Below, piece after piece: positions 18,866-54,065 of a stretch of DNA of 64,000 nt. Each line of letters opens with the position of its first letter. Position 1 is the stretch's first letter. The position numbers and the translations under genes are program-made. The notes beneath the pieces were generated by a model. That model saw nothing but the letters and a program-made list of their open reading frames with translations. It did not search any database and was not told where the DNA came from. Source of the DNA: Pseudosulfitobacter sp. DSM 107133 (GTDB lineage: Bacteria > Pseudomonadota > Alphaproteobacteria > Rhodobacterales > Rhodobacteraceae); contig NZ_CP085154.1 in NCBI RefSeq assembly GCF_022788695.1, positions 1-64,000 on the forward strand, in the 5' to 3' direction.

Positions 18866-18984
18866 GAGGGCCCTCGTGGGTGTTGTGAAATTTGGTCAGC
18901 GCATATCAGTCTGACTCTTTCTAAACAATGGATAACCCCATTCAAGTAACGCACAGACGACGACGCCACAGGCCCAGACACGAC

Positions 18985-19013
18985 AAAACCGGCCGGGCAG
19001 GGGCCGGGCCGGT
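18985..19013 (-). terminator. Terminator of the small secreted-protein gene
   Basis: Read on the minus strand, ACCGGCC (19013-19007) pairs with GGCCGGT (18994-18988), followed by TTT. It lies 25 bases downstream of the small secreted-protein gene and upstream of ahcY, so the two are probably transcribed separately. Confidence 0.75.
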
Positions 19014-19038
19014 CGGAAGTGCCTGACGGAATACGGTA

Positions 19039-19329
19039 TTATTCGGTCAGCATGGCCACCAATTCGTCAGCATCCTGACCGCCGTTCCAGTCTTCTCCGG
19101 TTTCCAGAACACAGCTGTTGCCATCGGGCAGATACTGAACCAGCGACCATGTCCCGTTCCGCTCGGACGCCCACAGCTGGGTGTCCTTGGCTTCCTGACC
19201 GGCAACAGGTGTTTCCCCGTACCAATCCACCAGCGAAGCTTCCATTTCAGCGCTGGACATACATGTGCCTGCCGCCATTGCAGTCGAGGCAGAGAAAATC
19301 AGTGCGGCGATGGTCAAAACGGGTTTCAT
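19039..19329 (-). CDS. Small secreted protein, unknown
   Basis: I do not recognise a family. The 96-residue product begins with a clear Sec signal peptide (MKPVLTIAALIFSASTAMA, cleavage after AMA) and leaves a mature acidic domain of about 77 residues with two cysteines (C23 and C73) that could form a disulfide in the periplasm. A good AAGGAG ribosome site lies upstream of the ATG. It is flanked by its own terminator and by the divergent HD hydrolase, so no operon partner gives a clue. Confidence 0.75.
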   Translation of the reverse strand: MKPVLTIAALIFSASTAMAAGTCMSSAEMEASLVDWYGETPVAGQEAKDTQLWASERNGTWSLVQYLPDGNSCVLETGEDWNGGQDADELVAMLTE

Positions 19330-19395
19330 GATGTGCTCCTTCAGGGATAGAACACGTTAAGGCGAAAATGGTTCCGTTCTTTTGCAAGAGGTTAC

Positions 19396-23288: not shown

Positions 23289-24839
23289 ATGCCACTGATC
23301 GACATCATCATTATCGCAGCGACCGCACTTGTTTCTGCGGTTGCCGTGCTGGGGGCAATTTTCTGGCTGGGTGTCCGTGGTAGCAAGCCTAAAATTCATT
23401 TATTCAATGATATCAGTATTTTATTTGACCGTGATCTTGCAACCCACGCCAGCCCCTCGGCCCTTGTTGCGCTGGATTGCGAACTTGAAACGCTGACCTG
23501 GAGCCTGATGTATGACCAGCTGCGTCACCGGTTCAAGGATCTTCCACCCGATCCCGCGCTGTTGCCAGATGGGGTGCATTACATTCAGGCCTTGATGCGC
23601 GGCGATAACGGCTTGCTGACGATGGAAAAACGCGGGGCCGTTGTCGAACTCAGCTTGTCCGCAGCGGTCGAGTACAGCATCGGCCACAACGAACGAATGC
23701 AGCTGCTGCAAGCCAAGATTGACACACTTGAACGTTCCAGCACCTCGGCGCCCTATCCGATGTGGCAAAAGGATGGACAGGGGCACATTCTTTGGAAAAA
23801 CGAAGCCTACGACCAATTGGCCCGTAGTGTTGATTACGGCGAAGATACGCTTCCTGCGTTGTTTGACGATGTTCTGGGGTCTTCGCCGGCACCGATCCAC
23901 CGCCGTGCGGCGGTGACCACGCAACCTGACGGCAAGACCCACTGGTTCGACGCTTCGCAGCAGGACATCGACGGGGTGACTGTTGCACATGCCATCAACA
24001 TAGACGCTGTCATTGACGCTGAAGTCGCCCAGCGCAATTTTGTACAGACACTTGCCAAAACCTTTGCGCAGCTGCCCATCGGTCTGGCGATTTTCGACCG
24101 CAAGGGGCAACTGGCCCTGTTCAATCCCGCACTTGTAGAACTGACACGTCTGCCCGCAGAGTTTCTAAGCGCGCAGCCCGACTTGCTGTCCTTTTTCGAC
24201 CGCTTGCGCGAAAACAGAATGATGCCAGAACCCAAGAACTATCGCACTTGGCGACAGGACATTGCCGACCTGATCCGCGCGGCAGCAGATGGGCGTTACC
24301 ACGAAATATGGACTTTGGAATCCGGTCAGACTTATCGCGTTAACGGTAAACCCCATCCCGACCACGCCGTCGCCTTTCTGATCGAAGACATCAGCGCCGA
24401 AGTCTCGGTGACCCGTAACTTCCGCGCCGAACTGGATATGAGCCAGTCGATGATGGACGCCCTGTCCGAGGGGCTGGCGCTGTTCTCTCCTGCGGGGGTT
24501 CTGACCCTGTGCAACCGATCCTATTCCGACATGTGGGGGTTTGATCCCGAGCACAGTTTTTCTGATATCACCATCGGAGATTCGGTGAAGGCGTGGCGGG
24601 ATAAATGCCAGCCGAACGCGGCATGGGCTGCGATCAGTGATTTCGTCAGATCCTCAGGTCCGCGTTCTGAATGGAGCGTCGAAGTTCTGGCAACAGATGG
24701 GAAGAAAATCCTGTGCACTGTCACCCCGGTTGCCGGCGGCGCGACAATGATTCAATTCGACCTGCTACGGGGCGACGTTTCAAATCGCTCGAAACATCTG
24801 AAAATTGCCGTTTTAGGCCAGACCCGAAATGCCATTTAG
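23289..24839 (+). CDS. divL: PAS-domain protein, DivL-like without kinase domain
   Basis: The 516-residue protein has one N-terminal membrane helix (about 3-27), then several PAS-type modules (roughly 140-240, 255-370 and 395-490; for example AQLPIGLAIFDRKGQLALFNPAL and LSEGLALFSPAGVLTLCNRSYSDMW), and stops where a histidine kinase core would begin. In Caulobacter divL lies beside tsaE and its neighbours, and Rhodobacterales DivL is known as a PAS protein lacking the kinase part that acts on the CckA-ChpT-CtrA relay. Position and architecture both fit. I start at ATG 23289 after GGGG. A CtrA-type site precedes it. Confidence 0.7.
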   Translation: MPLIDIIIIAATALVSAVAVLGAIFWLGVRGSKPKIHLFNDISILFDRDLATHASPSALVALDCELETLTWSLMYDQLRHRFKDLPPDPALLPDGVHYIQALMRGDNGLLTMEKRGAVVELSLSAAVEYSIGHNERMQLLQAKIDTLERSSTSAPYPMWQKDGQGHILWKNEAYDQLARSVDYGEDTLPALFDDVLGSSPAPIHRRAAVTTQPDGKTHWFDASQQDIDGVTVAHAINIDAVIDAEVAQRNFVQTLAKTFAQLPIGLAIFDRKGQLALFNPALVELTRLPAEFLSAQPDLLSFFDRLRENRMMPEPKNYRTWRQDIADLIRAAADGRYHEIWTLESGQTYRVNGKPHPDHAVAFLIEDISAEVSVTRNFRAELDMSQSMMDALSEGLALFSPAGVLTLCNRSYSDMWGFDPEHSFSDITIGDSVKAWRDKCQPNAAWAAISDFVRSSGPRSEWSVEVLATDGKKILCTVTPVAGGATMIQFDLLRGDVSNRSKHLKIAVLGQTRNAI

Positions 24840-26358: not shown

Positions 26359-27023
26359 TGATTTTTGCGGCGGGGTTCGGGACGCGGATGCGCCACCTGA
26401 CCCAGGACCGCCCCAAGCCGATGGTGCCCGTGGCCGGCCGGCCACTGATCGACCATGCGCTGGACATGGTGCAGGCCATCACGCCCGACCGGATCGTTGC
26501 AAACCTGCATTATCTGCCTGAGATACTGGAGACCCATCTGGCCGGCACCGGCGTGCAGACCGTGACCGAGACGGGCGCTATTCTGGAAACCGGCGGCGGG
26601 TTGCGAAATGCGCTGCCGTTGCTGGGCGACGGGCCGGTGTTTACCGTAAACCCCGACGCGATATGGACCGGATCGAACCCGCTGCAAGCGCTGTGTGCGG
26701 CATGGGAGCCTGCGCGCATGGACGCGCTGTTGATGTGTGTGCCGGTGGCCCAAGCAGTCGGCTATAGCGGGCAGGGCGACTTTGCCATTGGTCCTGACGG
26801 GCGGTTGCAACGGGGGCAGGGCGCTGTCTATGGCGGGGTGCAGATTATCAAAACCGACATGCTGGCCGGGATCACGCAAGACAGTTTTTCACTGAACGTT
26901 CTGTGGGACATGATGCTGCGAGACAACCGTCTGTTCGGGATCACCCACACGGGCCGTTGGTGCGACGTGGGCCACCCCGAAGGGATCGCATTGGCCGAAG
27001 CCATGTTGGCCGCCGATGTTTGA
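26340..27023 (+). CDS. murU: N-acetylmuramate alpha-1-phosphate uridylyltransferase MurU
   Basis: MurU makes UDP-MurNAc from UTP and MurNAc-1-phosphate, completing the recycling route started by AmgK. The 227-residue nucleotidyltransferase shows [11 protein letters not shown] followed by the conserved [18 protein letters not shown], then [23 protein letters not shown] and the closing [12 protein letters not shown] chose the ATG at 26340, overlapping amgK by 19 bases; an alternative ATG at 26358 starts right at MIFAAG. It overlaps addB by eight bases. Confidence 0.9.
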
Positions 27024-44878: not shown

Positions 44879-45708
44879 CGCAAGGCCGCCGCGCGCGCTG
44901 CGCTGTCGACAACCGGACGCTGTCCGAACCAGCGTTCGAAGCCCGGCACAGCCTGATGCAAGAGCATGCCCAAACCATCCACCACCACACAGCCCTGCTC
45001 TTCAGCAGTGACCAGCAGCCTGGTCTTGAGCGGTGTATAAACCAGATCAGTCACCACCGTGCCGCGCCGCAACCCGTCCAGCGGAACCCGCAGTTCCGAT
45101 TTTCCGATCATGCCAAGCGAAGTGGTGTTCACCGTCAACACCGCATCGTCCAGCATATTACCGGCCTGCACCCAGTCATAAACCTGCACCCGGCTGCCAA
45201 AGTCGGACGCCAGCCGTTCCGCCCGCACACGGGTGCGGTTGGTCAGCATGATTTCAGGCACCCCTGCGTCCAGCAGCGACGCCACAACCGCGCGCGCAGC
45301 ACCGCCCGCCCCCAGAACAGCGGCCGGGCCAGATTGCGGCACCCAACCCGGCGCGCCGGACTTCAGGTTTTCCAGAAACCCGTAACCGTCTGTATTGTCG
45401 GCCTGAATCTTACCGTCTTTGCGAAAGATAATCGTGTTCGCCGCGCCAATCAGCGTTGCGCGATCGGTCACCAGATCGGCAATCTGCATCACGGCTTCTT
45501 TGTGGGGAATGGTGATGTTTACCCCGACAAAGCCCATGCCGGGAAGGGTGCGCAAAACCTGTTCCAGATTTTCCGGCTCGACATGCAAGGGGATGTAATA
45601 CCCCTTCAGCCCCAAAGTTTTCAGCCAGTGGTGCTGCAACTGTGGTGATTTGGAATGGGCAACAGGCGCGCCGATCACGCCTGCCAGTGGAATTTTCGTA
45701 TCAGTCAC
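44875..45708 (-). CDS. aroE: Shikimate dehydrogenase
   Basis: AroE reduces 3-dehydroshikimate with NADPH in the aromatic amino-acid pathway. The 277-residue protein has the substrate-binding motifs IGAPVAHSKSPQLQHHWL and VNITIPHKEAVM (catalytic Lys), the NADPH motif VLGAGGAARAVVASLL, and the terminal GLGMLLHQAVPGFERWFG. Length is normal. It overlaps maf and coaE by four bases each. Confidence 0.96.
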   Translation of the reverse strand: MTDTKIPLAGVIGAPVAHSKSPQLQHHWLKTLGLKGYYIPLHVEPENLEQVLRTLPGMGFVGVNITIPHKEAVMQIADLVTDRATLIGAANTIIFRKDGKIQADNTDGYGFLENLKSGAPGWVPQSGPAAVLGAGGAARAVVASLLDAGVPEIMLTNRTRVRAERLASDFGSRVQVYDWVQAGNMLDDAVLTVNTTSLGMIGKSELRVPLDGLRRGTVVTDLVYTPLKTRLLVTAEEQGCVVVDGLGMLLHQAVPGFERWFGQRPVVDSAARAAALR

Positions 45709-46304
45709 GCCTGAAGAACTCCTCGGACTGTGAGAAAGGCCAGAAGCTGTAAAAGTGGCATACCCAGCACGCTAAAGTAATCCCCTTCGATGCTGGCCAT
45801 CAACCGCACCCCTTCTTCTTCTATCTTATAGCCGCCGACGCTGTGGCGGATGCTGTCCCAGTTGCGGTCAACATAGTCATGTACATAGGCATCCGACGCT
45901 TCGCGCATACGCACGCGCACCTGTCCGATGTGGCGCCAAATCGGTTCGCCGTTCTCACAGATCACCGCAGCCGACAACAAGCTGTGTGTATCGCCGCGCA
46001 GGGTGGTCAACTGTGCCACGGCCTGTTCGGGCGTTTCCGGTTTCGACAGCAACGTGCCACGGTGGTCCAGCACCTGATCGCAGCCCAACACAAATGTACC
46101 CGGCATCTTGTCGCTGATCTTGCGTGCTTTGATCTCGGCCAGAGTATCCGCAATGTCGCGCGGCCTGGCCTGTTCGGCCAGCATTCCCGCCTTAACACTT
46201 TCTTCATCAACGCGTGGTTTCATGACCTCAAAGGCGACACCTGCCTGTGTCAGCATTTCCGCCCGAATGGACGACCCAGAGGCAAGGATGATGGACTGTG
46301 GCAT
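45705..46304 (-). CDS. maf: Maf-like nucleotide pyrophosphatase
   Basis: Maf-family enzymes hydrolyse noncanonical or modified NTPs to monophosphates. The 199-residue product opens MPQSIILASGSSIRAEML (the SxSxxR loop), followed by VDEESVKAGM and GCDQVLDHRG, which carries the conserved Asp. The ATG at 46304 fits the family start; the first base pair of the codon is shared with a perfect DnaA box just upstream. maf is the first gene of the leftward maf-aroE-coaE-dnaQ transcript. Confidence 0.95.
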   Translation of the reverse strand: MPQSIILASGSSIRAEMLTQAGVAFEVMKPRVDEESVKAGMLAEQARPRDIADTLAEIKARKISDKMPGTFVLGCDQVLDHRGTLLSKPETPEQAVAQLTTLRGDTHSLLSAAVICENGEPIWRHIGQVRVRMREASDAYVHDYVDRNWDSIRHSVGGYKIEEEGVRLMASIEGDYFSVLGMPLLQLLAFLTVRGVLQA

Positions 46305-46312
46305 GTGGATAA
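46304..46312 (-). promoter_or_regulatory. DnaA box, perfect, touching the maf start codon
   Basis: TGTGGATAA on the plus strand is the exact complement of TTATCCACA. Its first base is also the first base of the maf start codon read on the minus strand, so DnaA bound here would cover the translation start region of maf. Confidence 0.75.
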
Positions 46313-46485
46313 CCTTGTGCGAAAACCATGTGCAGCGCGTTGGTCCTTTTGTGGGAATTCTGCGCAGCGGGTTCAATCCCGAATTTCGCCGGCTTTTTGC
46401 CCGGCTTCACCGCCGTTGTACCCCCATGCACAAGGATAAGACAGCACCTGTTGGCGAAGATGTTATTGTTACAGTCTCCACAAAG

Positions 46486-46494
46486 TTATCCACA
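46486..46494 (+). promoter_or_regulatory. DnaA box, perfect TTATCCACA
   Basis: An exact copy of the consensus box, in the middle of the candidate origin. A weaker two-mismatch site, GTCTCCACA (46474-46482), lies just left of it in the same orientation. Confidence 0.8.
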
Positions 46495-46517
46495 CACCGT
46501 AGTGAAATTATCAGGTT

Positions 46518-46541
46518 TAATCATTTGAAATTAAATGATTA
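46518..46541. repeat. AT-rich inverted repeat in the candidate origin
   Basis: TAATCATTT (46518-46526) and AAATGATTA (46533-46541) are perfect inverted copies around GAAATT. It lies 24 bases right of the central DnaA box, within the most AT-rich segment, and may belong to the unwinding region or bind a protein. Confidence 0.65.
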
Positions 46542-46588
46542 TTTTTCCATTCTGCTTTGGTGGCAAATTCAGGGTAAAGTTTTCCCAC

Positions 46589-46597
46589 TGTGCATAA
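46589..46597 (-). promoter_or_regulatory. DnaA box, TTATGCACA variant
   Basis: TGTGCATAA on the plus strand reads TTATGCACA on the minus strand, a match to the relaxed consensus TTATNCACA. Confidence 0.65.
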
Positions 46598-46614
46598 CCC
46601 GGTGTACGAACCAT

Positions 46615-46623
46615 TAATCCACA
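46615..46623 (+). promoter_or_regulatory. DnaA box, one mismatch
   Basis: TAATCCACA differs from TTATCCACA at the second base only. It is the rightmost box in the candidate origin, 83 bases before hemJ. Confidence 0.5.
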
Positions 46624-46705
46624 GATTTCAAAGCCCCTACTTAATCATCAACCTTTCTTTTCTCTTCTATTTATTATTAGTAAGAGACCAAGAGCAGGGG
46701 GCCCC

Positions 46706-47155
46706 ATGATCGACATTCTGAGCAACTGGTATCCCTACATCAAAGCGTTGCACATCATGTCAGTGATCGCGTGGATGGCTGGGTTGTTCTATCTGCCGCG
46801 TCTGTTCGTGCATCACGTCGAAACAGCCGGCCTGAGCGGGCCCAGCCATGACCTGTTCCTGATGATGGAAGAAAAATTGCTGCGGGTGATCATGAACCCC
46901 GCAATGATCTCGACCTGGCTCTTTGGCCTGCTGCTGGTGATGACACCGGGGATCGTCGGCTGGGATATGGTCTGGCCGTGGACCAAAGGGCTGTCGGTTC
47001 TGGCAATGACAGGGTTTCACATGTGGCTGGCACGCCAACGCAAGAACTTTGTCGCGGGCGAGGGGCTGAAAACCGGCCGCACCTATCGCATGATGAACGA
47101 GCTGCCAACGCTGCTGATGATCGTTATTGTACTGTCTGTGGTCGTGAAGTTCTGA
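46706..47155 (+). CDS. hemJ: Protoporphyrinogen oxidase HemJ
   Basis: HemJ is the membrane-bound protoporphyrinogen IX oxidase used by most proteobacteria lacking HemG and the soluble enzyme. The 149-residue protein has four membrane helices; the first carries the conserved His in IKALHIMSVIAWMAGLFY followed by LPRLFVHH, and a later conserved HMWLARQRKNF sits before the last helix. It lies directly right of the candidate origin. hemE, which usually sits between the origin and this gene, is missing here. Confidence 0.9.
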   Translation: MIDILSNWYPYIKALHIMSVIAWMAGLFYLPRLFVHHVETAGLSGPSHDLFLMMEEKLLRVIMNPAMISTWLFGLLLVMTPGIVGWDMVWPWTKGLSVLAMTGFHMWLARQRKNFVAGEGLKTGRTYRMMNELPTLLMIVIVLSVVVKF

Positions 47156-47276: not shown

Positions 47277-48575
47277 ATGACAACTGAAACAATCGAAGCA
47301 ACTGAAACAGTTGAATGCCTGACGTTGGCCGAGTTGAAGGCCAACAGCCCCAAAGATCTGCTGGCGATGGCCGAAGAGCTTGAGATCGAGAACGCCTCGA
47401 CCATGCGCAAGGGCGAAATGATGTTCCAGATCCTGCGCGAACGCGCCGATGAAGGCTGGGATGTCTCCGGCGACGGCGTGCTGGAAGTGCTGCAAGACGG
47501 TTTCGGTTTCCTGCGCTCGCCCGAGGCTAACTATCTGTCCGGTCCCGACGACATCTATGTGTCGCCCGAGATGATCCGCAAATATTCGCTGCGCACCGGC
47601 GACACCATCGACGGCGGTATTCGCGCGCCGGACAATGATGAACGCTATTTCGCGTTGACAGATGTGGCGAACATCAACTTCGAAGATCCCGAAAAGGCCC
47701 GTCACAAGATCGCCTTTGACAACCTGACGCCGCTGTACCCCGACGAGCGCCTGACCATGGAAACCGACGAACCCGCGACCAAGGACCGGTCGGCGCGGAT
47801 CATCGACCTGGTGTCGCCCATCGGCAAAGGCCAGCGGTCGCTGATCGTGGCGCCGCCGCGCACCGGTAAAACGGTTCTGTTGCAAAACATCGCCAACAGC
47901 ATCGAACGCAACCACCCTGAATGCTACCTGATTGTTCTGCTGATCGACGAGCGGCCTGAAGAGGTCACCGACATGCAGCGTTCGGTCAAGGGCGAGGTTA
48001 TCAGCTCGACCTTTGACGAACCCGCAACGCGCCACGTCGCCGTGTCGGAAATGGTCATCGAAAAGGCCAAGCGTCTGGTCGAGCACAAACGCGACGTGGT
48101 GATCCTGCTGGATTCGATCACCCGTCTGGGCCGCGCGTTCAACACCGTCGTGCCGTCGTCGGGCAAGGTTCTGACCGGTGGTGTGGATGCAAATGCCCTG
48201 CAACGCCCGAAGCGTTTCTTCGGTGCTGCACGGAACATCGAAGAGGGCGGCAGCCTGACCATCATCGCGACTGCGCTGATCGACACCGGCAGCCGCATGG
48301 ACGAGGTGATTTTTGAAGAGTTCAAAGGCACCGGTAACTCGGAAATTGTGCTGGATCGCAAGATCGCGGACAAACGCGTGTTCCCGGCCATCGACATCCT
48401 GAAATCCGGCACCCGGAAAGAAGAGCTGTTGGTCGACAAAATCGATCTGGCCAAAACCTTTGTCCTGCGCCGCATTCTGAATCCGATGGGCACCACCGAC
48501 GCCATCGAATTCCTGATTTCGAAGTTGAAGCAGACCAAGACAAATTCGGATTTCTTCGATTCCATGAACACCTGA
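47277..48575 (+). CDS. rho: Transcription termination factor Rho
   Basis: Rho is the hexameric RNA-dependent ATPase that ends many transcripts. The 432-residue protein has a short N-terminal helical part ([20 protein letters not shown]), the RNA-binding fold with DGFGFLRS, Walker [12 protein letters not shown] near 192, Walker [16 protein letters not shown], and the Q-loop region of the hexamer. The ATG at 47277 agrees with homologues. The 121-base leader contains CCCCGTTCGGGG and could fold, but I see no clear attenuator. mnmE follows after 18 bases. Confidence 0.97.
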
Positions 48576-49880: not shown

Positions 49881-49896
49881 TGTTTCACGTGAAACA
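49881..49896. promoter_or_regulatory. parS centromere site 1, at the start of mnmG
   Basis: TGTTTCACGTGAAACA is a perfect 16 bp palindrome identical to the widespread bacterial parS sequence bound by ParB. It lies across the possible start codons of mnmG, 3.3 kb left of parB and 3.4 kb right of the candidate origin centre. The codons it supplies read F-H-V-K-H. Confidence 0.95.
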
Positions 49897-51748: not shown

Positions 51749-52362
51749 CAATAGTACCGGATTGGCTTGATGAGATTGTTTCACGTGAAACATTGGAAGA
51801 CCTCGAGAAGTTTCATGCACTGTTTCTAAGGTGGAATGCCAAGATCAATTTGGTTTCGCGCTCCAGCGCGCCAGAGCTGTGGAACAGGCACATTTGGGAT
51901 TCAGCTCAAGTTTGGCAGATTGCACCGAAGGCGGCACATTGGGCAGACTTTGGCAGCGGGGGCGGATTCCCGGCAATTATTTGCGCAATATTTGCCAAAA
52001 ATACCAACGCTGAAACACGCTTTACATTGGTTGAGAGCGATCAGCGTAAGGCGACCTTTCTGCGCACGGCTTTGCGGGAATTGGATCTGAATGCGACTGT
52101 GGTGGCCAAAAGGGTGGAATCGCTTGATTCCTTAGGCGCTGACATCATTTCCGCGCGGGCTTTGTCGCGCTTGACGGATTTATTCGAGTTCGTGGCACAA
52201 CACATGACACCAGGCGGGCAAGCGTTGTTTCCCAAGGGTGAAATTTGGCAGACAGAACTTGAAGAAGCGCAGAAAACGTGGACATTCGACTATAAAGCGC
52301 ACACAAGTCATACGGACGCTCAAGCGGCTGTTTTGCAGGTCAAGGAGTTGAAGCGTGGTTGA
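51745..52362 (+). CDS. rsmG: 16S rRNA (guanine527-N7) methyltransferase RsmG (GidB)
   Basis: RsmG methylates G527 of 16S rRNA, a target linked to streptomycin sensitivity. The 205-residue protein has the family opening [20 protein letters not shown] then KINLVSRS, the SAM-binding motif [25 protein letters not shown] and ISARALSRL. The VSRET residues are encoded by a perfect parS site. It overlaps mnmG by four and parA by eight bases. Confidence 0.95.
51777..51792. promoter_or_regulatory. parS centromere site 2, inside rsmG
   Basis: A second exact TGTTTCACGTGAAACA lies 33 bases into rsmG and 1.9 kb right of site 1. In the rsmG frame it encodes V-S-R-E-T. Together the two copies form a small parS cluster next to parAB. 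Confidence 0.95.
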
Positions 52363-53170
52363 CCCAACACGTCCCATAGGACCCAAAATCGTGGCGATCG
52401 CCAACCAGAAGGGTGGGGTTGGCAAAACGACCACCTCGATCAATTTGGCTGCTGCTCTGGCTGAACTGGGCCGGAAGGTGTTGCTTGTCGACCTTGATCC
52501 GCAAGGGAACGCATCAACCGGGCTGGGGATTGAAGTTGATGACCGGGTTTTGACGACATATGAATTGCTGCTGGAAGATGTTGATCTGGAAGCAACGATT
52601 CTGGCTACCGCATTCGAAAACCTGTCGATTATTCCGGCAACAGTTGATCTGAGTTCCGCGGATCTTGAGTTGATTTCAAATGAGAAGCGCAGTTTCCTTT
52701 TGCATGACGCCTTGCGTCAGATTCAGATGGACGCTTTTGCCTTTGATTATGTCCTAATTGACTGTCCACCGTCGTTGAACCTGTTGACCGTAAACGCAAT
52801 GATAGCATCGCATTCGGTGCTTGTGCCGTTGCAGTCAGAATTTTTTGCCCTCGAAGGATTGTCGCAATTGATGCTGACAATTCGCGAAGTTCGGCAGTCC
52901 GGGAACAAGGATTTGCGGATCGAGGGGGTCGTTCTGACAATGTACGACCAGCGGAATAACCTGAGTTTGCAGGTCGAACAGGATGCGCGCGACAATTTGG
53001 GCGATCTCGTCTTCAAGACGGTGATTCCCCGCAATGTCAGAGTTTCCGAAGCGCCGTCGTTTGCCATGCCGGTTTTGAACTACGATCCTGCATCGCGCGG
53101 TGCGAAGGCATATCGCCAGCTGGCTAAGGAATTCCTACACAACAATGCACAAACGAAAGTAGAGGCCTGA
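52355..53170 (+). CDS. parA: Chromosome partitioning ATPase ParA
   Basis: ParA is the Walker-type ATPase that moves ParB-parS complexes and so the newly copied origin. The 271-residue protein has the deviant Walker A KGGVGKTTTSINLAAAL near residue 19, DLDPQGNASTGL, and DYVLIDCPPSLNLLTVNAM. The start is a GTG with AAGGAG eight bases upstream, overlapping rsmG by eight bases. parB follows after one base. Confidence 0.96.
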   Translation: MVDPTRPIGPKIVAIANQKGGVGKTTTSINLAAALAELGRKVLLVDLDPQGNASTGLGIEVDDRVLTTYELLLEDVDLEATILATAFENLSIIPATVDLSSADLELISNEKRSFLLHDALRQIQMDAFAFDYVLIDCPPSLNLLTVNAMIASHSVLVPLQSEFFALEGLSQLMLTIREVRQSGNKDLRIEGVVLTMYDQRNNLSLQVEQDARDNLGDLVFKTVIPRNVRVSEAPSFAMPVLNYDPASRGAKAYRQLAKEFLHNNAQTKVEA

Positions 53171-53171
53171 T

Positions 53172-54065
53172 ATGGTACCCAAGGATAAAAAACGTGGTCT
53201 GGGCCGTGGGCTTTCGGCGTTGATGGCAGATGTGAACGAGGCCGAGCAGGTGACACAAGAGAGTGTTGCGTCGGGGGTTCGTACAGTTCCGATTGAGCAA
53301 GTAAAGCCCAATCCGGACCAGCCGCGCAAACGTTTTACCCAGGATGATCTGGATGACCTGGCCGCGTCGATTGCGGAAAAGGGTGTGATTCAGCCGTTGA
53401 TTGTGCGCGAAAAGGACGGCGGTTTCGAAATTGTCGCGGGCGAACGCCGCTGGCGCGCTGCGCAGATGGCCAAGCTGCATGAGCTTCCGGTGATTGTGCG
53501 CGACTTTGACGACACCGAAGTTTTGGAAGTCGCCATTATCGAGAACATCCAGCGGGCGGATCTGAACGCCATCGAAGAGGCGGCAGGTTATCGTCAGTTG
53601 ATGGACAAGTTTGGCCATACGCAGGAAAAAATGGCCGAGGCCTTGGGGAAAAGCCGCAGCCACATTGCCAACCTTTTGCGTTTGCTACAGTTGCCAGATG
53701 ATGTTGTTGAAATGGTGCGCAAGGGTGATTTGTCGTCAGGTCACGCGCGCGCTTTGATTACAGCTGATGATCCTTCGACTTTGGCGTTGAAAGTGATTGC
53801 CGAGGGATTGAGCGTTCGCGCGACCGAAGCGCTGGTTAAATCCACGCAAGGACGGGGCGATGACGCTGCCCCCAAGGACAAAACCAAAAAATCAAATCCG
53901 GCAAAGGATGCGGACACCAAAGCGCTTGAAGGTGACTTGTCGGCTGCGTTGGGAATGCCGGTTCAACTGTCACACAAACCGGGCGCCGAGTCCGGCCAGC
54001 TTTCGATTTCATACAAAACGCTGGATGACTTGGACGAATTGTGTCGGCTGCTAAGCGGAAGCTAA
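53172..54065 (+). CDS. parB: Chromosome partitioning protein ParB
   Basis: ParB is the CTP-dependent clamp that loads at parS and spreads. The 297-residue protein begins KKRGLGRGLSALMADV, has the ParB/Srx box IVAGERRWRAAQMAKL with VIIENIQRADLNAIEEA nearby (EVAIIENIQRADLN), the helix-turn-helix GKSRSHIANLLRLL, and a C-terminal dimerisation part. Its recognition sites, parS, lie 1.4 and 3.3 kb upstream. The gene ends in a four-base tail-to-tail overlap with hemW, without a visible terminator. Confidence 0.96.
   Translation: MVPKDKKRGLGRGLSALMADVNEAEQVTQESVASGVRTVPIEQVKPNPDQPRKRFTQDDLDDLAASIAEKGVIQPLIVREKDGGFEIVAGERRWRAAQMAKLHELPVIVRDFDDTEVLEVAIIENIQRADLNAIEEAAGYRQLMDKFGHTQEKMAEALGKSRSHIANLLRLLQLPDDVVEMVRKGDLSSGHARALITADDPSTLALKVIAEGLSVRATEALVKSTQGRGDDAAPKDKTKKSNPAKDADTKALEGDLSAALGMPVQLSHKPGAESGQLSISYKTLDDLDELCRLLSGS

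Follow-up and report, generated by a model that had tools for sequence, protein, structure and literature searches.

The origin of replication of the Caulobacter crescentus chromosome, Cori, lies between hemE and a COG1806/DUF299 gene and contains DnaA boxes, five CtrA sites and an IHF site (PMC1914354). In the Rhodobacteraceae, the predicted origin of Ketogulonicigenium adjoins maf, and according to a 2016 paper DoriC shows conservation of this arrangement across the family (PMC4793288). The origins of 101 Rhodobacteraceae were predicted via Ori-Finder, with candidates chosen by skew minimum, GC minimum and proximity to parAB (PMC6699656). Opening of an origin has been attributed to a basal unwinding system made up of a DnaA box, a spacer of up to 16 bp and DnaA-trios with the consensus 3'-GAT-5'; 15% of origins had no DnaA-trios, and deviant motifs lacking the middle adenine were suspected in them (PMC8287927). 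In Bacillus subtilis, Asn187 of DnaA touches the middle base of the trio at its amino group, and a middle guanine, thymine or uracil slows strand separation by this DnaA while cytosine does not; recognition of a range of sequences by DnaA homologs was put forward as a possibility (PMC10721633).

The window analysed here, the whole 64,000-base stretch, comprises bases 1-64000 of a contig of 3,635,847 bases that is numbered from dnaA, in a genome of 5.21 Mb and 13 contigs. A first-pass annotation had placed the origin between maf and hemJ partly by analogy with Caulobacter, and the analogy held in part. The neighbourhood of Cori includes maf, aroE, coaE and dnaQ on one side and rho, mnmE/G and parAB on the other; this wider neighbourhood is shared. 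The window's gap has an IHF-like site with one mismatch. The hemE flank of the analogy was not borne out: unlike Cori, the gap is flanked by hemJ and maf, hemE lies far off at 3.20 Mb, and a search of this genome for DUF299 gave no match. Neither a CtrA-like site (TTAA-N7-TTAA, at most one mismatch) nor GANTC was found in the window's gap. Over positions 1-64000, GANTC is depleted threefold, with 75 occurrences where shuffles predict 248. The location is the same as that of the Rhodobacteraceae oriC beside maf, and is thus already in print for this family and not new (PMC4793288); the passages available from that paper describe neither a box map nor a trinucleotide module and do not mention hemJ.

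Position of the replication origin

The gap between the diverging genes maf and hemJ contained every sequence element that had been reported for it, including two perfect DnaA boxes at its left edge and centre, a further exact box, a one-mismatch box and two AT-rich parts (Table 1). By nearest-neighbour stability, just 0.003% and 0.014% of the 40-mers in the window were less stable than those starting at 46505 and 46640, respectively. The gap had also been called the only long gene-free stretch, which was incorrect: by the ORF-list reading 18866-19395 is longer, a stretch of about 530 bp that separates ahcY (-) from an HD-domain YfbR-like gene (+) and contains no evident gene. This second stretch had no Rfam match at the gathering threshold and no DnaA box with at most one mismatch. 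Over the whole window, stability was lowest in a 40-mer starting at 23389, outside the origin, with no DnaA box (at most one mismatch) nearby.

Table 1. Features of the window, with positions counted from its first base
Feature	Position	Strand	Remarks
dnaA	1..1353	+	Tyr186 at the position of B. subtilis DnaA Asn187
maf	45705..46304	-	
Probable oriC, whole maf-hemJ intergenic gap	46305..46705		Box cluster, skew switch, synteny, box conservation
Exact DnaA box TTATCCACA	46304-46312	-	Overlaps first base of maf start codon; same place in many relatives
Exact DnaA box TTATCCACA	46486-46494	+	Gap centre
Central AT-rich part, least stable 40-mer of the gap	46505..46544		Nearest-neighbour stability
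IHF-like site	46518..46530	-	One mismatch to consensus; inside central AT-rich part
Exact TTATGCACA box	46589-46597	-	
One-mismatch DnaA box TAATCCACA	46615-46623	+	Points at trinucleotide array
Trinucleotide array CTA CTT AAT CAT CAA C, proposed deviant DnaA-trios	46637..46652	+	Trio strand is the complement
Second unstable part, proposed first unwinding site	46640..46679		Overlaps array and pyrimidine/T-rich tract; conserved in 77-gap alignment
hemJ	46706..47155	+	Score 126.6 against NCBIfam cut-off of 138 (slightly below)
parS, exact match to 16-mer	49881..49896		Inside mnmG
parS, exact match to 16-mer	51777..51792		Inside rsmG
parA and parB	52355..54065	+	

There were 42 exact TTATNCACA boxes on the 3.64 Mb contig, and when these 42 were placed at random, a triple as tight as that in the gap (within 285 bp) occurred in 41 of 200,000 placements. 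Boxes with at most one mismatch numbered 13 in the whole window, fewer than the chance mean of 21.4, so the origin signal is the cluster and not the count.

Cumulative GC skew had been named as one means of checking the proposal, and this was done for part of the chromosome, the 456 contiguous kb around the site. A one-step model placed the switch near the gap, at 48,153 (block-bootstrap 95% interval 38-59 kb), and excluded dnaA: the log-likelihood was 1.0 units below that of the best place at 46.5 kb, 4.4 units below at 26.5 kb, and about 18 units below at dnaA (position 1). The step fit was used instead of the raw cumulative minimum, which as a sole criterion was indecisive, the curve being flat from 26 to 47 kb with its minimum at 26,549 (-4153) and a local minimum only 31 counts away at 46,756 (-4122). 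Samples of 20 kb taken further out had positive skew in 10 of 11 cases from 100 kb to 1.87 Mb, the exception being negative at 610 kb, and negative skew in all nine cases from 2.05 to 3.42 Mb. Of two extra samples, one at 1.77 Mb had a skew of +0.062 and the other, at 1.95 Mb, a skew of -0.004. The second sign change lay near 1.9-2.2 Mb, compared with an expected antipode of 1.864 Mb. A dif-like pattern had no match in the genome with up to three mismatches, so the terminus is placed only roughly, from skew.

The 16-mer that we take to be parS had two exact matches in the genome, 3.4 and 5.3 kb from the centre of the gap, and no others within two mismatches. The closest named relatives by HemJ were Pseudosulfitobacter and Sulfitobacter (96-97% protein identity), which marks this as a Rhodobacterales chromosome. 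Gene order was compared across Rhodobacterales in HemJ loci from other genomes, the best 80 of 85 being kept. In these 80, maf adjoined hemJ in 72, and rho-mnmE-mnmG-rsmG-parA-parB followed hemJ in 77, with some contigs ending early. Seventy-six of the loci and the window supplied a set of 77 gaps of 377-457 bp, in which the left edge was aroE rather than maf in L062, L072, L076 and L080; L029, L034 and L038, without a maf or aroE match, and L100, which begins at hemJ, were excluded. The 77 gaps (33.6 kb) held 59 exact TTATNCACA boxes, three of them from the window, versus 5 in 1.17 Mb of flanking sequence from the 76 loci, and 47 exact boxes were counted once similar gaps had been removed (66 remaining, window not included). 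Many individual gaps had no exact box at all, which indicates that the box set drifts. At least one CtrA-like site was present in 16 of the 77 gaps, and none in 61.

The intergenic cluster of boxes, the low-stability AT-rich part, the sign switch in GC skew and the adjoining parS sites and parAB genes, together with the conservation of boxes and gene order, support the original proposal, and we regard 46305-46705 as very probably the chromosomal oriC.

A conserved module at the hemJ end of the gap

Alignment of the 77 gaps revealed a conserved block next to hemJ, composed of a box, a short spacer, CTAC, CAT/CAA triplets and a T-rich tract, which in the window spans 46615-46680. The mean top-letter fraction was 0.78 in the array, 0.68 over 46634-46679 and 0.62-0.75 in nearby boxes, compared with 0.51 in the whole gap. 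The spacer between the TAATCCACA box and the array in the window is 13 bp, within the published range of 0-16 bp. From the placement of DnaA-trios in the 5' tail in PMC8287927, we infer that the trios lie opposite the box strand; with 3'-GAT-5' opposite the box, the canonical trio is CTA on the box strand.

A pattern taken as the exact 20 letters of the hemJ side matched only this genome and one other among 289 genomes of the class (four of the family), and with two mismatches it gave 16 matches in this genome and 2 in the control. It was therefore unsuitable and was replaced by a rule in which a box with at most two mismatches is followed, after 0-16 bp, by at least three units of C[AT][ACT]. 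The rule was derived post hoc from the Rhodobacterales gaps, in which it was found facing hemJ in 44 of 77, in reverse in 1 of 77, and in 13 of 1540 order-1 simulated gaps. The box of the module started 63-113 bp ahead of the hemJ start in all 44, and removal of similar gaps left 36 of 66 forward versus 1 of 66.

For other Alphaproteobacteria, gaps between hemE and DUF299 were collected from 82 DUF299 places, with 3 left out (two pieces of one gene and one below the cut-off). The first 30 places, minus 2 without hemE, gave a set of 28 gaps, which was partly viewed before scoring; the other 49, minus 10 without a divergent hemE, gave a set of 39, the only one that was unseen. The module faced hemE in 6 of the 28 and was reversed in none, with 4 and 12 of 1400 in two simulated runs. 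In the unseen set it was forward in 11 of 39 and reversed in 2 of 39 (Fisher p 0.013), against 17 of 1950 simulated gaps, and ten of the eleven modules started 57-126 bp from hemE and one at 288 bp. Pooled, the two hemE sets contained the module in 17 of 67 gaps forward and 2 of 67 reversed. Related genomes count as independent in all of these tests. Since the module adjoins hemE in one group and hemJ in the other, its association is more likely with the origin than with either gene.

A run of three units was not reached in 33 of the 77 Rhodobacterales gaps, nor in 22 of 28 and 28 of 39 hemE gaps. The window's own array has a strict run of only two because its third unit is AAT and the rule needs C in register. 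Runs of at least four units, with no box required, were found facing hemJ in 29 of 77 gaps and on the other strand in 1 of 77; in the controls they were found in 50 of 1540 simulated gaps and in 170 of 5246 further pieces, each of 430 bases, cut from the same loci. Runs of at least three units made up solely of CAH outnumbered those made up solely of CTH, by 20 to 2 in the 77 gaps and by 10 to 1 in the 67.

Unit letters were scored, with no shuffled control, in the 59 of 77 gaps in which at least four of five units were C[AT][ACT]. The first unit was CTA in 39 of these 59 arrays, which is an upper figure as ties favour CTA, and units 2-5 were mostly CAT or CAA, the middle letter of the box strand being A in 46, 48, 44 and 36 of 59. 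Some arrays mixed CTA with CAA or CAT while keeping C in register (L263, L273 and L256, given as examples only since the rule demands C), and such mixed arrays would fit a fixed 3'-G with a variable middle base. About 70 bp before hemJ in Frigidibacter (L090) there was a canonical CTA CTA CTA; both types of unit therefore occur in the order.

The published rule for trios with a middle A, requiring at least three consecutive units, had no match in the window. It matched in 57 of the 77 gaps versus 155 of 770 simulated; of these 57 matches, 25 coincided with the hemJ-side module, 18 were on its strand at other places and 14 were on the opposite strand. Read in another frame, CAT repeats are 3'-TAG-5', so some of the signal could come from ordinary trios; CAA repeats allow no such reading. 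The reading with a middle T is thus unambiguous only in CAA arrays and is a matter of degree in CAT arrays. By the published rule the window does not qualify as a canonical trio origin, although it may work like one.

The published scan of 2070 species covered five proteobacterial classes, with the per-species results in supplementary tables (PMC8287927). Among the titles listed by the literature searches none was on DnaA-trios in Alphaproteobacteria, which does not imply absence from print. The hemJ-side end, consisting of DnaA box, spacer, C[A/T]N triplets and pyrimidine-rich tract, looks like the new part of this origin. A control outside the class, in the first 1.5 kb at 26 dnaA loci, gave CAH runs in 0 of 26, CTH runs in 1 of 26 and either in 3 of 26, where oriC may lie elsewhere; in several of these loci the start of dnaA is close to the end of the contig, and part of the stretch is then dnaA itself. 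As this control was uninformative, the case for restriction to the Alphaproteobacteria is built on the published consensus together with the DnaA residue described below.

The DnaA residue at the position of Asn187

Alignment to 8btg, counted by hand, paired Tyr186, Lys201, Glu182 and Glu227 of the window's DnaA with Asn187, Arg202, Glu183 and Glu228 of B. subtilis DnaA. The residue at the Asn187 position was read in the best-scoring 30 of 41 Rhodobacterales genomes searched, 30 of 57 genomes of other Alphaproteobacteria and, for the rest of the phylum, 26 of 60 genomes searched (44 of these 60 being outside the class, and several of the 26 from one family). Tyrosine was found in all 30 Rhodobacterales, this genome included. 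The 30 other Alphaproteobacteria had tyrosine in 26, phenylalanine in 2 and histidine in 2, and the 26 others of the phylum had alanine in 7, asparagine in 7, threonine in 6, glutamine in 4 and serine in 2, with an aromatic residue in 0 of 26. Asparagine is therefore not general outside the class either. A separate ORF (G000:C1:624980-625192) matched the DNA-binding end of the DnaA family only (58 bits, model positions 345-415).

These observations, which come from sequence comparison, suggest that Alphaproteobacteria may use a variant of the DnaA-trio that keeps the G register and has T or A (in Rhodobacterales usually T) as its middle base, read by Tyr or Phe in place of Asn187, the origin and the initiator having changed together at the base of the class. 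We hold this proposal to be evenly poised. T-containing arrays and an aromatic reader are correlated at a single branch of the tree, which amounts to one event at most, and their match is a hypothesis and not a result.

Alternative readings and proposed course of initiation

An origin at dnaA, either in the dnaA-dnaN gap (1354-1532) or just upstream, would make the maf-hemJ boxes secondary sites for titration or gene regulation, and is in keeping with the numbering of the contig from dnaA and with the location of dnaA within 50 kb of the skew switch. This is extremely improbable, given the poor fit of the skew step at position 1, a single one-mismatch box in the 1.5 kb upstream of dnaA, and a dnaA-dnaN gap with no box at up to one mismatch, where the first-pass annotation had likewise seen none and had rejected an origin. 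Within the maf-hemJ gap, the array and T-rich tract could be a promoter or leader of hemJ instead of an origin element, in keeping with the position of the module box, 63-113 bp before the hemJ start, in the 44 Rhodobacterales gaps. The same layout faces a different gene, hemE, in other Alphaproteobacteria, and three Paracoccus loci without a neighbouring maf or aroE (L029, L034 and L038, outside the 77 gaps and inspected by eye) keep the box and array beside hemJ, which makes this explanation unlikely, and a promoter role may be shared by the module.

It is also conceivable that the first opening takes place in the central AT-rich part, in the manner of an E. coli-like DUE, with the hemJ-side array binding another factor. 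The least stable 40-mer of the gap is there, an exact box ends 10 bp to its left, and an IHF-like site lies inside it. The consensus that we take to be that of IHF had no exact match in the window's gap and two one-mismatch matches, at 46518 and 46529. Matches with at most one mismatch were enriched in Rhodobacterales (57 of 77 gaps versus 447 of 1540 simulated; exact matches, 10 of 77 versus 32 of 1540) and were not enriched in the hemE gaps of other orders (7 of 28 versus 157 of 560, and 19 of 39 versus 341 of 780 simulated). However, apart from the IHF-like site the letters of the central part vary, with a top-letter fraction of 0.46 versus 0.68 in the hemJ-side block and 0.51 in the gap, and an IHF site suggests a bend at this place rather than the opening itself. 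A central opening thus appears doubtful, and the probable course is that a trio-like filament opens the DNA on the hemJ side.

In the proposed mechanism, DnaA would load on the boxes at the maf start, at the centre, at 46589 and at 46615, and IHF might bend the centre of the gap. A DnaA filament would run from the 46615 box across the adjacent array at 46637-46652 and open the AT/pyrimidine-rich tract up to 46680, after which the helicase would be loaded and bidirectional forks established. ParB bound to the two nearby parS sites would move the new origins. The array would act as the alphaproteobacterial variant of the DnaA-trio, with 3'-G in register and a middle T or A, read by the aromatic residue that replaces Asn187.

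The origin itself is an expected find, and it warns against the use of dnaA as the zero point of replication, which here would be 46 kb off. The unwinding module matters more than the location of the origin. If the proposal is true, the T-containing array of the Alphaproteobacteria and the changed reader residue would be a deviant motif of the kind that has been suspected, that is, a changed code for origin opening, and the pairing of array and reader makes a direct swap experiment possible. Like the published DnaA-trio system, the module has a box that points at a trinucleotide array followed by AT/T-rich DNA, and its first unit is often CTA (3'-GAT-5'). Unlike the published trios, the later units are mostly CAT and CAA, that is 3'-GTA-5' and 3'-GTT-5', with a T in the middle.
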